From NCBI RefSeq assembly GCF_025950085.1, contig NZ_JAPDDS010000002.1, forward strand, positions 372,001 through 436,000: 64,000 bases of DNA, given 5' to 3'. The notes under the pieces are model-generated. The model did no database searches. It saw only the letters and a program-made list of their open reading frames with translations, and had not been told where the DNA came from. A program made the position numbers and the translations under genes. Positions 23,717 to 38,275 of this stretch are shown here, piece after piece (position 1 is the first letter of the stretch; the number at the start of each line of letters is the position of its first letter). The DNA comes from Luteolibacter flavescens. GTDB lineage: Bacteria > Verrucomicrobiota > Verrucomicrobiia > Verrucomicrobiales > Akkermansiaceae.

Positions 23717-24895
23717 GGCTCCCACCAGCCCCGCCATCGTTTTCGTCATGAACCGCCGCGCGAGCGGGAGGTGGCGGGTGATGCCGAAGAAGCCGGTGCG
23801 CAGGGGAGTGAGCCATTCGTGGTCGGACTGGAACCACGGGGTGAGCTGGCGGCTGGCGAGGCGGTAGTAGGCGAGTGCCATGCGCCGCTCGCGGCTGTAG
23901 CGGGACAGGGCTTCTGTTAGATCCGGGAAGCGGGTGATGCTGTCGGCGAGGCAGGCGGCATCGGCGAGCGCGAGATTCACGCCCTGGCCGAGTTGCGGAC
24001 TCATGGCGTGGCCGGCATCGCCGAGGATGACCACGCCGTCGCCGTGCCACCGGCTCATCGCGACATCGCCGTAGCGGGCGGTGAGGACCTGGGACCAATC
24101 GTGGATCTGCCCGAGAAGCGCGTCCGCCCGCGGGCAGAGATCGAGGATGGTCTGCTTCCACTCCGCCAGCGGCCGGGCGCGGATGGTCGCATCGTCGGCG
24201 AGCTTGATGCTCCAGAAGAGGCTCACCAGCGGCTCCGTGCCATCGAGTTCCGTGCCGGTGGCGAGGAAGCCGAGCAGGCGGCGCGTGCCGTGGACGATCT
24301 GGTAGAGCTCGCTTTCCGGGAAGGCCCCGCGGTTCTCGCCGATGAACCAGTGCGCGCCCCACGGATACCCGCGGTTGATGCCCTTGAATCCCAGCTTCCC
24401 GCGCAGTGCCGAGCGCGCGCCGTCCGCCACCACCAGCAGGTCGTAGCCCGTCTCGCGCCTGCCGTCCGCCGTCTCTAACAGCCACTTGCCATCCTCGCGT
24501 CTTGCCTGGGAAATCTCCCATCCCCAGCGAACGTCCACGCCGGCATCGCGCATTGCTTCCAGCAGAAAGTGAAGCAGCACCGGCCGGTGCAGTCCCAGCC
24601 CGTGCAGATCCTTGCCGAGCTCCGCATAGTGCAGGTCCAGCACCTCGCGCTCGTCGCGGTCCACCACGTGCAGGCGCTCCACCCTTGCGCCGCGGCGGAG
24701 GATTTCCTCCAGGATGCCCAGCTCGCGCAGCACCGCCATGCCCGATGGCTGGAGCAGGAATCCCGCACCGACCGGGCGGCAATCCGGTGCGCGCTCGTAG
24801 AGCGTCACCTCATGTCCCTGCCGCCGCAGCAGGATGGCGGCGGCGGGACCGGCGGAGCCGCAGCCGACCACGGCCACCCGGAGCTTTGGATTCAC
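23699..24895 (-). CDS. FAD-dependent monooxygenase (class A flavoprotein, PHBH-like)
   Basis: 398 residues with the three class A signatures: the N-terminal dinucleotide fold VVGCGSAGPAAAILL (residues 9-23), the central VVADGARSALR (DG motif) and the C-terminal GDAGHAMSPQLGQGVNLALADA (GD motif). Enzymes of this family use FAD and NAD(P)H to hydroxylate small aromatic or polyketide-like substrates. The short C-terminal tail after the GD motif fits a stand-alone monooxygenase. The start is GTG at 24895. It is divergent from the flavin oxidoreductase gene at 24969, 73 bp away. The substrate cannot be predicted. Confidence 0.87.
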   Translation of the reverse strand: MNPKLRVAVVGCGSAGPAAAILLRRQGHEVTLYERAPDCRPVGAGFLLQPSGMAVLRELGILEEILRRGARVERLHVVDRDEREVLDLHYAELGKDLHGLGLHRPVLLHFLLEAMRDAGVDVRWGWEISQARREDGKWLLETADGRRETGYDLLVVADGARSALRGKLGFKGINRGYPWGAHWFIGENRGAFPESELYQIVHGTRRLLGFLATGTELDGTEPLVSLFWSIKLADDATIRARPLAEWKQTILDLCPRADALLGQIHDWSQVLTARYGDVAMSRWHGDGVVILGDAGHAMSPQLGQGVNLALADAACLADSITRFPDLTEALSRYSRERRMALAYYRLASRQLTPWFQSDHEWLTPLRTGFFGITRHLPLARRFMTKTMAGLVGASLPRK

Positions 24896-24968
24896 GGGCT
24901 GGATGCTTCATTGCCACCGCGGCCCGGCAAGCTTGTGTTTGCGGAGATGCGTGGAAGCATCTCCCGTG

Positions 24969-26345
24969 ATGTCTGTTTCACGCCGCACGTTCCTGGGGCT
25001 ATCGATGGCGGCGCTGCCCGCCTGGGGTCAGGTGAGGCCCGCGCTGCGCTACCTGCAGCCCGGGGATGCCGGCTATGAGGAAGCGCGGCAGCCCTTCAAT
25101 TCCATCATCCTGCTGAGGCCCGGACGCATCGCCTGCTGCCGCACCGAGGCGGACGTGATCGCCGCCGTGCGCCACGCAAAGGAAGCCGGTCTGCCGGTGG
25201 CGATCAAAAGCGGCGGGCACGATTTCCACGGCTTCAGCCTGAATGACGGCGGCCTGTTGGTCGAACTCTCTGGAATGGCTGCCCGCGCACTCGACGCGAA
25301 GACGGGCCACTTCACCGCCGGGCCCGGCCTGAAGCTCCGCGACTGCTACTCCGCGCTCATCCCGCGCGGGCGATTCCTTCCCGCGGGATCGTGCGGCGGC
25401 GTCGGCCTGTCCGGGCTCACGCTCGGCGGTGGCTACGGACTGTTTTCCCGGGAGTTCGGCCTGACCTGCGATCACCTGCTCTCCGTGCGGCTCGTCGATG
25501 GGCAGGGTGAGGTCCGCGACTCCCGCGACGAGCCGGAGCTGCTGTGGGCCTGCCGTGGCGGTGGAAACGGGAACTTCGGTATCGTCACCTCGTTCACCTT
25601 CGAGACACGCGCGGCCCCGCCGACGCTGGCGAGCCGCAAGTTCGTCGCGAAAGGCCTCGATGCCCGCGGGCTGGCCCGGTGCATGGAGCGGTGGTTCGAG
25701 ATAGCGGCGGCTCTCCCGGAGCCCTGTTTCTCCGCAGTGATCCTGAATGGCAGCCAGGCGACCGTGCTGCTCACCTCCACGAAGTCCGCCGACGGCCCGG
25801 CATTTGTCACCGCGTCAAAAGCGCTGCTGCAGGCGGGCTTCACTTCGAAGGGGCCGCTCACCCGGCCGTTTGCCCGCGCGCTGGTGACCTACGAGGGGCG
25901 TCCCGGCCCGCTGCCCTTCGACAATGTCTCCGCCGGCTACTATCGCGGCCACGATGACCTGAAATCCGCAGCCGCGGGAATCTGCGAGACGGTCCGCGCG
26001 ACGCCGGGCCTCATTTTCCAAGTGAATACCCTCGGCGGCGCAATCGCTAGGGGCCCCGACTCCGCCTATCCGCACCGCGAGTTCCCCTTCCTCGGCGAGT
26101 TGCAGGCGTATTGGGAAAAGGGCGCGATCCCCGCGAAGCTCGCTGCCGGTCACGCCTCGGTCCGCGCCGCATTGGAAGCCGCGGGCATCCGCCGCCACTA
26201 CCGGAACTACCCCGACCCGCGCCTCGCCGATTGGCAGACCGCCTACTTCCCCGGCACCTACGAGCGGCTCCAGAAGCTGAAGGCGACCCTGGATCCCGAC
26301 GACCGCTTCCGCCACCCGCAGAGCGTCCGGCTTCCCGGAAACTGA
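24969..26345 (+). CDS. Exported FAD-linked oxidase (BBE-like), probably bicovalent flavin
   Basis: 458 residues. The N-terminus has a twin-arginine-like signal (MSVSRRTFLGLSMAALPAWG). An FAD-binding PCMH-type domain covers about 40-215 and a BBE-type C-terminal segment ends near NYPDPRLADWQTAYFPGTYERL and DPDDRFRHPQSV. H84 (SGGHDF) and C142 (GSCGGVG) are at the places where berberine-bridge-like oxidases attach FAD by two covalent bonds. These enzymes oxidise sugars, alcohols or alkaloids with oxygen. Start 24969 is preferred because the upstream extension overlaps the divergent gene and would bury the Tat signal. Confidence 0.85.
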   Translation: MSVSRRTFLGLSMAALPAWGQVRPALRYLQPGDAGYEEARQPFNSIILLRPGRIACCRTEADVIAAVRHAKEAGLPVAIKSGGHDFHGFSLNDGGLLVELSGMAARALDAKTGHFTAGPGLKLRDCYSALIPRGRFLPAGSCGGVGLSGLTLGGGYGLFSREFGLTCDHLLSVRLVDGQGEVRDSRDEPELLWACRGGGNGNFGIVTSFTFETRAAPPTLASRKFVAKGLDARGLARCMERWFEIAAALPEPCFSAVILNGSQATVLLTSTKSADGPAFVTASKALLQAGFTSKGPLTRPFARALVTYEGRPGPLPFDNVSAGYYRGHDDLKSAAAGICETVRATPGLIFQVNTLGGAIARGPDSAYPHREFPFLGELQAYWEKGAIPAKLAAGHASVRAALEAAGIRRHYRNYPDPRLADWQTAYFPGTYERLQKLKATLDPDDRFRHPQSVRLPGN

Positions 26346-26370
26346 GGCGTTTTCAAAAAATTCTCAGAAT

Positions 26371-26532
26371 CTTTGAACGTCTGAGAAAGTGAAGGGTCTA
26401 TGACCATGAAGACCGCGCAAGCGTCAGTCTTCATGTAAGGGTGAACAGCACAACATCAGCTTCCTGACCATGGGTGTGGGAGGGAAATGATTCAGGCCGT
26501 CAGGGGTGGGACCCTGGCGGCCGACTCTTGTA
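26371..26532 (+). ncRNA. Structured tandem element, copy 1
   Basis: First of three homologous copies spaced 233-234 bp apart. It contains a hairpin of nine pairs (CATGAAGAC / GTCTTCATG, 26405-26435), a conserved linker (TAAGGGTGAACAGCACAACA), and an 11-bp terminal hairpin (26495-26522, loop GTGGGA) with one T-G pair. It ends in TCTTGTAC. The outer helix seen in copy 2 is weakened here (AAGTGA instead of AAGCTGA). The strand is assigned from the order of elements and is not proven. Confidence 0.45.
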
Positions 26533-26603
26533 CACGGGTCACGATGCGGACTTTTCGGCCCCGCACCCCGCCTTCTGAAATTTCCGCGAAATATTTTTGG
26601 AAA

Positions 26604-26769
26604 CTTTGAACATCGGGGAAGCTGAAGGGTCTATGATCATGAAGACCACGCACTGCGTCGGTCTTCATGTAAGGGTGAACAGCACAACATCAGCTTCCCG
26701 AGTCCATGGGTGTGGGCAGGGAAATGATTCGGCCGCCAAGGGTGGGACCTTGGCGGCCAACTCTTGTAC
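26604..26769 (+). ncRNA. Structured tandem element, copy 2
   Basis: Best-formed copy. An outer helix GGAAGCTGA (26617-26625) pairs perfectly with TCAGCTTCC (26690-26698) and encloses a 10-bp hairpin (26638-26647 with 26660-26669). A perfect 11-bp hairpin follows at 26731-26758. Compared with copies 1 and 3, a G-C pair has become A-T on both sides of this last stem. The inner part of the first hairpin also changes on both sides (CGC...GCG becomes ACGCA...TGCGT). This supports selection on structure. No ribosome site or conserved reading frame. Confidence 0.5.
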
Positions 26770-26837
26770 AGGCATCGCGACGGGGACTTCCGGCACCACG
26801 CCGCCTCTGGAAAGATCCGGTGAAGTATTTTTGGAAA

Positions 26838-27004
26838 CTTTGAACGTCCCGAAAGCTGAAGGGTCTATCCCTATGAAGACCGCGCAAGCGTCAGTCTTCA
26901 TGTAAGGGTGAACAGCACAAAACATCAGCTTCCTGACCATGGGTGTGGGCAGGGAACATGATTCAGGCCGCCAGGGGTGGGACCCTGGCGGCCGACTTTT
27001 GTAC
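26838..27004 (+). ncRNA. Structured tandem element, copy 3
   Basis: Third copy. Outer helix AAGCTGA/TCAGCTT, first hairpin CGCGCAAGCG-type as in copy 1, terminal hairpin 26966-26993 with 11 perfect pairs, and the end CTTTTGTAC. The spacers between copies (about 70 bp, including TATTTTTGG and AACTTTGAAC) are also conserved, so whole 234-bp units were duplicated. TTGAAC and TCTAT boxes precede each copy and might be promoters. The gap from 26346 to 27021 holds nothing else. Confidence 0.45.
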
Positions 27005-27021
27005 CGAGGTATCAGTCGTCG

Positions 27022-27429
27022 TCAGAGAAGGCGTTCGCGAAGTGCATCCGAGGGCATGGCGCAGGCGTCGCCCTTGCCGAACCATTTCAGACGGCGGGCG
27101 GCGATGAAGTCGTAGGCCGCGTCTCGGAGGGAGCGCGGGATGACGCGTGCGAGCAGCGCGAGGATGCGCCAATGCCAGCCCATTTCACGGAGGCACCGCA
27201 GGATGCCATCGGAGCGGGAGAGTACGGTGCCGTCCACCTCGACCAGCGCGGTATTCAGCGCGCCGGTGCCGGATCTTTCCTCCATGCTCCGGCCGCGGGG
27301 GCTCTGGAGGGTGACGAAGCGGAAGCGCTTCCCCGGATCATGCTCGGCCAGGAAGCGGATGCTGCGGCTGCACATCAGGCAGTCACCGTCGAATGCCACC
27401 ACGAGGAAGTCATCTGTGCCCGAGCTCAC
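27022..27429 (-). CDS. DCC-family thiol-disulfide oxidoreductase-like protein (DUF393)
   Basis: 135 residues. The defining DxxCxxC motif is at D13-C16-C19 (FDGDCLMCSRSIRFL), in a thioredoxin-like N-terminal half, followed by FVTLQSPRG, a DGILRCLREMG helix and a positively charged C-terminal half (RLKWFGKGDACAMP). DCC proteins are predicted thiol-disulfide oxidoreductases; their substrates are unknown. Start is GTG at 27429, 64 bp from the divergent LysR gene. No signal peptide, so cytosolic. Confidence 0.85.
   Translation of the reverse strand: MSSGTDDFLVVAFDGDCLMCSRSIRFLAEHDPGKRFRFVTLQSPRGRSMEERSGTGALNTALVEVDGTVLSRSDGILRCLREMGWHWRILALLARVIPRSLRDAAYDFIAARRLKWFGKGDACAMPSDALRERLL

Positions 27430-36553: not shown

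Positions 36554-38275
<1,722 letters not shown>

Follow-up and report, generated by a model that had tools for sequence, protein, structure and literature searches.

In Luteolibacter flavescens, three direct repeats separate a BBE-type FAD oxidase gene (24834-26345, + strand) from a DCC1-like gene (27022-27429, - strand), and they raise the question of what they encode: a structured RNA, a peptide or a mobile element. Coordinates are those of the window, by which we mean the whole 64,000-nucleotide stretch of DNA that was analysed. In our analysis the repeats look like copies of an unnamed small-RNA gene, limited so far to one Verrucomicrobiota family. A first-pass annotation of the sequence had described three tandem copies, and we found the same: the repeat blocks lie about 234 bp apart (start spacings of 233-236 bp), the three aligned units, flanks included, share a mean column identity of 81%, and 150-nt stretches of copies 1-3 fold on the + strand with minimum free energy z-scores of -2.5, -5.5 and -3.6 relative to dinucleotide shuffles. 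The limits that the annotation gave to each copy agree almost to the letter with a span that opens at a conserved TTTGAAC box and closes at the TTGTAC following the terminal hairpin, and the structured units within are 132-136 nt long (26402-26533, 26635-26769 and 26869-27004). Folding and inspection also confirmed that all three copies have a first hairpin and an 11-bp terminal hairpin with the loop GTGGGA, and by inspection the reported concerted changes at paired positions were seen, as was the 1-nt difference in loop length that shifts the reading frame. A peptide reading was rejected, as indels seen on inspection between the three copies shift the frame. Because the reverse strand folds about equally (z -2.4, -6.7 and -5.1), the strand of the RNA was assigned from the box and from the T-tracts of relatives, not from folding.

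Comparison across the family gave each unit the same anatomy, namely a promoter-like box, a 5′ hairpin (H1), a 16-nt linker, a second hairpin (H2), a terminal hairpin (H3) and, in most relatives, a T-run; all features listed here are on the + strand. The box of copy 1 (TTTGAAC-N17-GTCT, 26372-26399) is an exact pattern match at G000:C2:398372-398399, with a -35-like part at 26372-26378 and a -10-like GGTC at 26395-26398. It precedes a putative sRNA (26402-26533), which has homologues and which matches the covariance model with 129 bits, this copy being in the model's own set. H1 (26405-26435) is drawn from the fold and from covariation, the conserved motif GTAAGGGTGAACAGCA (26435-26450) falls among the family's most conserved columns, H2 (26455-26491) comes from the fold, and the terminator-like H3 with its GTGGGA loop (26495-26522) is backed by covariation and followed by a weak U-tract. 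The same pattern places the box of copy 2 at 26605-26632 (GGTC at 26628-26631), ahead of a putative sRNA at 26635-26769 (130.7 bits). Its H1 (26638-26669) and H3 (26731-26758) again follow from fold and covariation, the latter without a call in a terminator scan, and its motif (26669-26684) from sequence and the conserved columns. In copy 3 these features are the box at 26839-26866 (GGTC at 26862-26865), the putative sRNA at 26869-27004 (127.3 bits), H1 at 26873-26901 (fold and covariation), the motif at 26902-26917 (sequence and conserved columns) and H3 at 26966-26993, the only one of the three that the terminator scan called. The limits of H2 in copies 2 and 3 (26689-26728 and 26924-26962) are approximate and set by analogy with copy 1, as the single-sequence folds preferred other pairs.

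A 176-base query detected five copies in the window's own genome, the triplet and single matches at C15:102374 and C5:355463. The first search of relatives yielded matches in 19 of 57 genomes, the own genome included, and in 2 of 32 genera. With a covariance model built from 56 copies, matches were obtained in 94 of 260 genomes of the family, representing 8 of 16 genera, and all 18 genomes of the genus that were examined carry the sRNA, with one to six copies per genome among the matches listed. A model built from 117 matches was then run on an order-wide sample (matches in 84 of 386 genomes, 8 of 50 genera) and a phylum-wide sample (13 of 387 genomes, 4 of 197 genera) under strict filters that lose weak matches, such that diverged copies may be present in genera that gave none; every genome with a match in these two samples belongs to the window's own family. 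One genus of this family (g3), which we take to be Akkermansia proper, gave no match among the genomes listed. A 21-letter pattern with 20 fixed bases, for which we calculate about 0.5 chance matches, retrieved 65 stretches from the GTDB collection; all 65 are titled as members of the Verrucomicrobiota group, and all match the covariance model, one of them cut by a contig end. Going by their titles, the holders are, among others, Luteolibacter marinus, L. pohnpeiensis, Haloferula luteola, H. rosea and Roseibacillus MAGs. Another five (L096, L108, L114, L118 and L132) bear the title of Akkermansia muciniphila MAGs, which is doubtful because L096 and L108 appear to belong to G006, a genome of the window's own genus. 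The homologue search that the first-pass annotation had proposed as a check came out in its favour. Comparative support is strong, and it is highly likely that the repeats are members of a family of structured small RNAs that is confined, within the genomes sampled, to a single bacterial family.

The annotation had recognised no named family in the element, and this was upheld within Rfam 15, in a search that covered the complete window, the triplet on its own, both further copies of the own genome and four relatives: no family reached its gathering score at the triplet, where the best sub-threshold match had an E-value of 1.4, and none appeared up to E 1 at the six other loci. Among the open-access papers listed in literature searches, no title or opening of an abstract described the element. 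Elsewhere in the window (36710-37003, - strand) Rfam family RF02514 (5′ ureB sRNA) matched with 63.8 bits, which may reflect only the conservation of a urease coding sequence.

To describe the family we used an anatomy set of 100 loci, picked to skip most repeats, that gave 117 model matches, 113 of them distinct, as a few places were fetched twice. In the alignment of the 113 distinct copies, which is fitted to the structure of the covariance model itself, 17 of the 21 pairs of H1 and H3 changed on both sides and 93.4% were paired; none of 500 shuffles was as high on any measure, and slid versions of the alignment reached at most 51.8%. H3 had two-sided changes in all ten of its pairs, with 99.3% of cells paired, and H1 in 7 of its 11 modelled pairs, with 87.9% of cells paired. 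The first, unfitted alignment (MAFFT, 56 copies) was 92.0% paired, with two-sided changes in 7 of 21 pairs and none of 500 shuffles reaching it. It was weaker in that its number of pair types did not exceed that of the shuffles (212 of 500), and a version displaced by one column likewise had seven two-sided pairs, though it was only 46.4% paired. On this alignment RNAalifold paired ACC with GGU in place of H1, which was set by hand from single-sequence folds because the divergent loops aligned poorly. In distant members the sequence of H3 is replaced and its loop is TTCG or GAAA, mostly still with a T-rich tail after it; the GTGGGA loop, reported as invariant, is constant across the window's three copies and differs elsewhere in the family. 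Covariation, the other check that had been proposed, supports two hairpins, H1 and H3, more weakly in the first alignment than in the fitted one.

The region of H2 is too variable to be aligned across the family. Taken from the linker to H3 and compared with 40 shuffles for each of the 113 distinct copies, it has a mean z-score of -3.0, with z below -1 in 96% and below -2 in 76% of the copies. The 16-nt linker between H1 and H2, GUAAGGGUGAACAGCA, is exact in 86 of the 113; its ACAGC is predicted to be open (unpaired probability of 0.71-0.87), and its GGG to be mostly paired (0.13-0.17) with the 5′ end or the region of H3 and the tail. An outer helix, which the annotation had listed ahead of an enclosed first hairpin, was rejected. 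It overlaps the promoter spacer and shows no covariation: in 26 array-type copies 59.7% of its cells are paired, a level equalled or exceeded in 439 of 500 shuffles of the partners, and versions slid along the alignment are 23-49% paired.

The promoter-like box, GAAC-N17/18-GTC, stands upstream of 110 of the 113 distinct copies, with a 17-nt spacer in 105 and an 18-nt spacer in five. Two of the remaining copies are one letter off (L124 and L210) and one has none (L093); a looser search had found a box at all 57 first-round copies. Conservation extends to letters outside the search pattern, as among 104 anchored copies a T is found at -2 in 104 and at -1 in 101, a G before GTC in 85 and a T after it in 84, and an A-tract is conserved 15-20 nt upstream of GAAC. 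Within the spacer, 15 of 17 positions carry 0.03-0.57 bits and the two outer ones 1.1 bits. The box has GAAC in its -35-like part and GTC in its -10-like part, at near-constant spacing, and the sigmaE boxes given for Salmonella rybB and micA, GGAACTTTT and GTCAAA, also include GAAC and GTC (PMC1804206). Compared by its letters, the box resembles RpoE-type ECF promoters. An ORF downstream of the box (L265) looked sigma-like by eye and was set aside, as no Pfam or NCBIfam model matched it.

The fuller pattern TTTGAAC-N17-GTCT matched 62 times in 10 genomes of the genus, compared with six matches of a reversed-pattern control; by hand count, 34 of these sites are at sRNA copies and 28 elsewhere, 13 of the latter falling outside the groups described here. 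One group lies in a non-coding stretch beside mutL, which carries the pattern in 8 of the 10 genomes (G000:C11:55649 in the own genome, locus L252, and L254, L255, L256, L261, L262, L264 and L271); the identity of MutL was established by Pfam for L254 and by tblastn at all eight sites. All eight sites have AACAAGAAATTTCT upstream; in seven of them CATTCCCCC follows the box, and six also show its partner GGGGAAATG, of which L252 has a variant. The stretch is possibly a second RNA gene. Rfam gave no match at 12 searched box loci without the sRNA, the mutL-side ones included, and at a relaxed threshold L252 had chance-level matches only. At three other sites (G000:C8:166974 in the own genome, locus L253, and L263 and L270) in three genomes, 10-11 nt separate the box from the ATG of membrane-protein genes that are homologous to one another and whose mutual blastp E-values are 5e-19 or better; L270 matches Wzz below the Pfam cut-off, and L253 and L263 match nothing at full length. 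This arrangement suggests leaderless mRNAs, and the 10-11 nt distance fits a transcription start at about the position where H1 begins in the sRNA. Four further sites (L257-L260, in G012, G015, G010 and G008) share an upstream stretch, TTAACAAGAAAATC, and adjoin genes on the other strand, with no common product seen.

As for the 3′ end, the number of T in the 10 nt that follow H3 averages 6.7 for 83 of the 113 copies and 5.1 for the 30 with a TTGTAC tail. The U-tracts of the window's copies are weak (CTCTTGTAC and CTTTTGTAC), and the terminator scan of the triplet made its one call against a shuffle mean of 0.9, about the number that chance would yield; it also called the rsmA-linked copy of the own genome. 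H3 resembles an intrinsic terminator in the majority of relatives, and the likeness is weaker in the window. Homologues, covariation and the terminator-like end together uphold the annotation's preference for a structured RNA over a peptide and, among the roles it had listed, that of a tandem small RNA.

The most widely shared form of the RNA is flanked by rsmA and by a chaperone gene of the SurA/PpiD type, a linkage that spans several genera. In the fetched flanks of the 117 rows both genes were found 16 times, the chaperone gene only 12 times and rsmA only four times (16, 10 and 4 for the 113 distinct copies), counts that are lower bounds, as some flanks are cut. Where found, the chaperone gene was always downstream of the RNA on the same strand (28 of 28), at a distance of 89-350 nt. 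Of the 18 genomes of the genus, 15 showed both neighbours; in G001, where the copy is at the edge of a contig, rsmA was the only one seen. The neighbouring proteins match Pfam RrnaAD and SurA_N_3, and the latter protein has a partial, sub-cut-off likeness to the peptidyl-prolyl isomerase model NF008054, which we take to be PpiD. Array-type copies lie near an aconitase, BBE oxidase or DCC gene in G000 (the own genome), G003, G007, G008, G009, G010 and G015. None of these three genes was found in the fetched flanks of the arrays of G004, G006, G011 and G012; those of G004 and G012 share an adjoining kinase/FGE-type gene family, and that of G011 shares the FAD_binding_3 gene. There was no consistent gene downstream of the array-type copies, and its strand was mixed, the same in nine cases and opposite in 17, with copy types assigned by simple patterns and genes by a rough ORF caller. 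Copies resemble each other more closely within a genome than between genomes, above all in H2 (similarity of 0.87 in 21 pairs within genomes and 0.68 in 304 pairs between genomes), which points to recent duplication or gene conversion.

We propose that each unit would be a gene in its own right, encoding a small RNA some 130-150 nt long, whose transcription an ECF-type sigma factor would start at the 5′ hairpin or shortly before it. The RNA would act in trans, because the array neighbours are mixed, the box is present and the end is terminator-like, and its linker, with the predicted open ACAGC, would dock target mRNAs or an RNA-binding protein. Hfq would not be used, since none was detected in this lineage: PF17209 matched 0 of 57 genomes of the order, compared with 5 of 14 control genomes. 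Long target sites were not in excess, as TGTTCACCCTT occurs 75 times in 18 genomes, 51 of them within the sRNA by hand count, leaving 24 occurrences outside it versus 41 for a reversed control; targets, if any, would for this reason use short seeds, or the partner would be a protein. The linker was also considered as an anti-Shine-Dalgarno mimic, an idea that gained no support, its energy with an assumed 16S tail being -8.5 kcal/mol against a shuffled mean of -6.4 and 19% of shuffles being as good. Envelope stress would be the likeliest signal because the most widely shared copy lies between rsmA and the SurA/PpiD-type chaperone gene. In the window's genus an extra copy would have been amplified into small arrays, the window holding one of three copies, and an array could raise dosage or let copies specialise. 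On the whole, the probable reading in our judgement is an sRNA that acts in trans without Hfq, is controlled by an ECF-type sigma factor and has been amplified into arrays.

It has to be weighed against four others. The linkage to the chaperone gene would also be explained if the RNA were a cis leader or attenuator of that gene, with H3 deciding on read-through and the other copies being relics or secondary. The gene is present in 28 of 117 rows (26 of 113 distinct copies), across several genera, and we raised the odds of this explanation because its strand turned out to be uniform. We still hold it to be distinctly unlikely, given that the array-type copies, those of the window included, have downstream genes on either strand and yet keep box, hairpins and linker. 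A dispersed and tandem repeat with hairpins could instead be a mobile or REP/MITE-like element, a role that the first-pass annotation had left open; the few copies per genome among the matches listed, the recurrent neighbourhoods, the box before nearly all copies and the replacement of H3 with its pairing kept make this highly improbable.

The other two explanations accept a small RNA and differ in how it is controlled or how it works. It could be an sRNA of the ordinary kind, with a box recognised not by an ECF sigma factor but by the housekeeping one or by an activator; TTGAAC does resemble a sigma-70 -35 box, and we found no sigma-factor gene, of the ECF type or otherwise, tied to the box. 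Given the fixed GTC, and with no sigma-70-like site in 26300-27100 or around the rsmA-linked own-genome copy, we regard this as rather unlikely. The RNA could also work by binding a protein and sequestering a regulator, in the manner of CsrB or 6S RNA, instead of by pairing with mRNAs. The linker and the order of hairpins are conserved beyond the need of a short seed, long complementary sites are not in excess, and several copies per genome would add dosage; on the other side, inspection revealed neither a repeated GGA motif across the family nor a long 6S-like duplex, and no Rfam family reached its score at the searched loci, so that this explanation, too, seems to us rather unlikely.

Under the preferred reading of a trans-acting sRNA, the box and the neighbouring chaperone gene, and to a lesser degree the gene for a membrane protein, hint indirectly that the RNA may help these bacteria to respond to cell-envelope stress. 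A wider proposal, which we offer as speculative and rather doubtful, is that Akkermansiaceae run an Hfq-free envelope-stress sRNA circuit independent of the enterobacterial MicA/RybB, in which one ECF sigma factor would drive not only the sRNA but also another non-coding transcript, next to mutL, and a polysaccharide-related gene with a leaderless mRNA, the sRNA being amplified into arrays in one genus. Very few small RNAs have been charted in the Planctomycetes-Verrucomicrobia-Chlamydiae group, for the whole of which a table in a 2022 review has eight (PMC9029176). A covariance model and a promoter motif are now at hand for the new family, which also has relatives in culture (Luteolibacter and Haloferula strains), and in a lineage where no Hfq was detected it makes sRNA action without Hfq directly testable.

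The closest likeness is to MicA and RybB, the sigmaE-dependent sRNAs of enterobacteria, which are likewise encoded by small intergenic genes with GAAC and GTC in their boxes (PMC1804206). The neighbours of the most shared Luteolibacter copy have E. coli counterparts in the sigmaE regulon, a table of which includes imp-surA-pdxA-ksgA-apaG-apaH, where the same source notes that the sigmaE consensus was not found upstream of imp-surA-pdxA (PMC2731931). Unlike MicA and RybB, of about 70-80 nt, the Luteolibacter RNA would be 130-150 nt long, with three hairpins and no Rfam match, and it comes in several copies per genome, in an order where no Hfq was detected in 57 genomes. Multi-copy sibling sRNAs are known in Qrr and in OmrA/OmrB; like them, the Luteolibacter RNA is encoded several times in a genome by similar copies that have a core in common, and it differs from them in phylum, sequence and promoter class.
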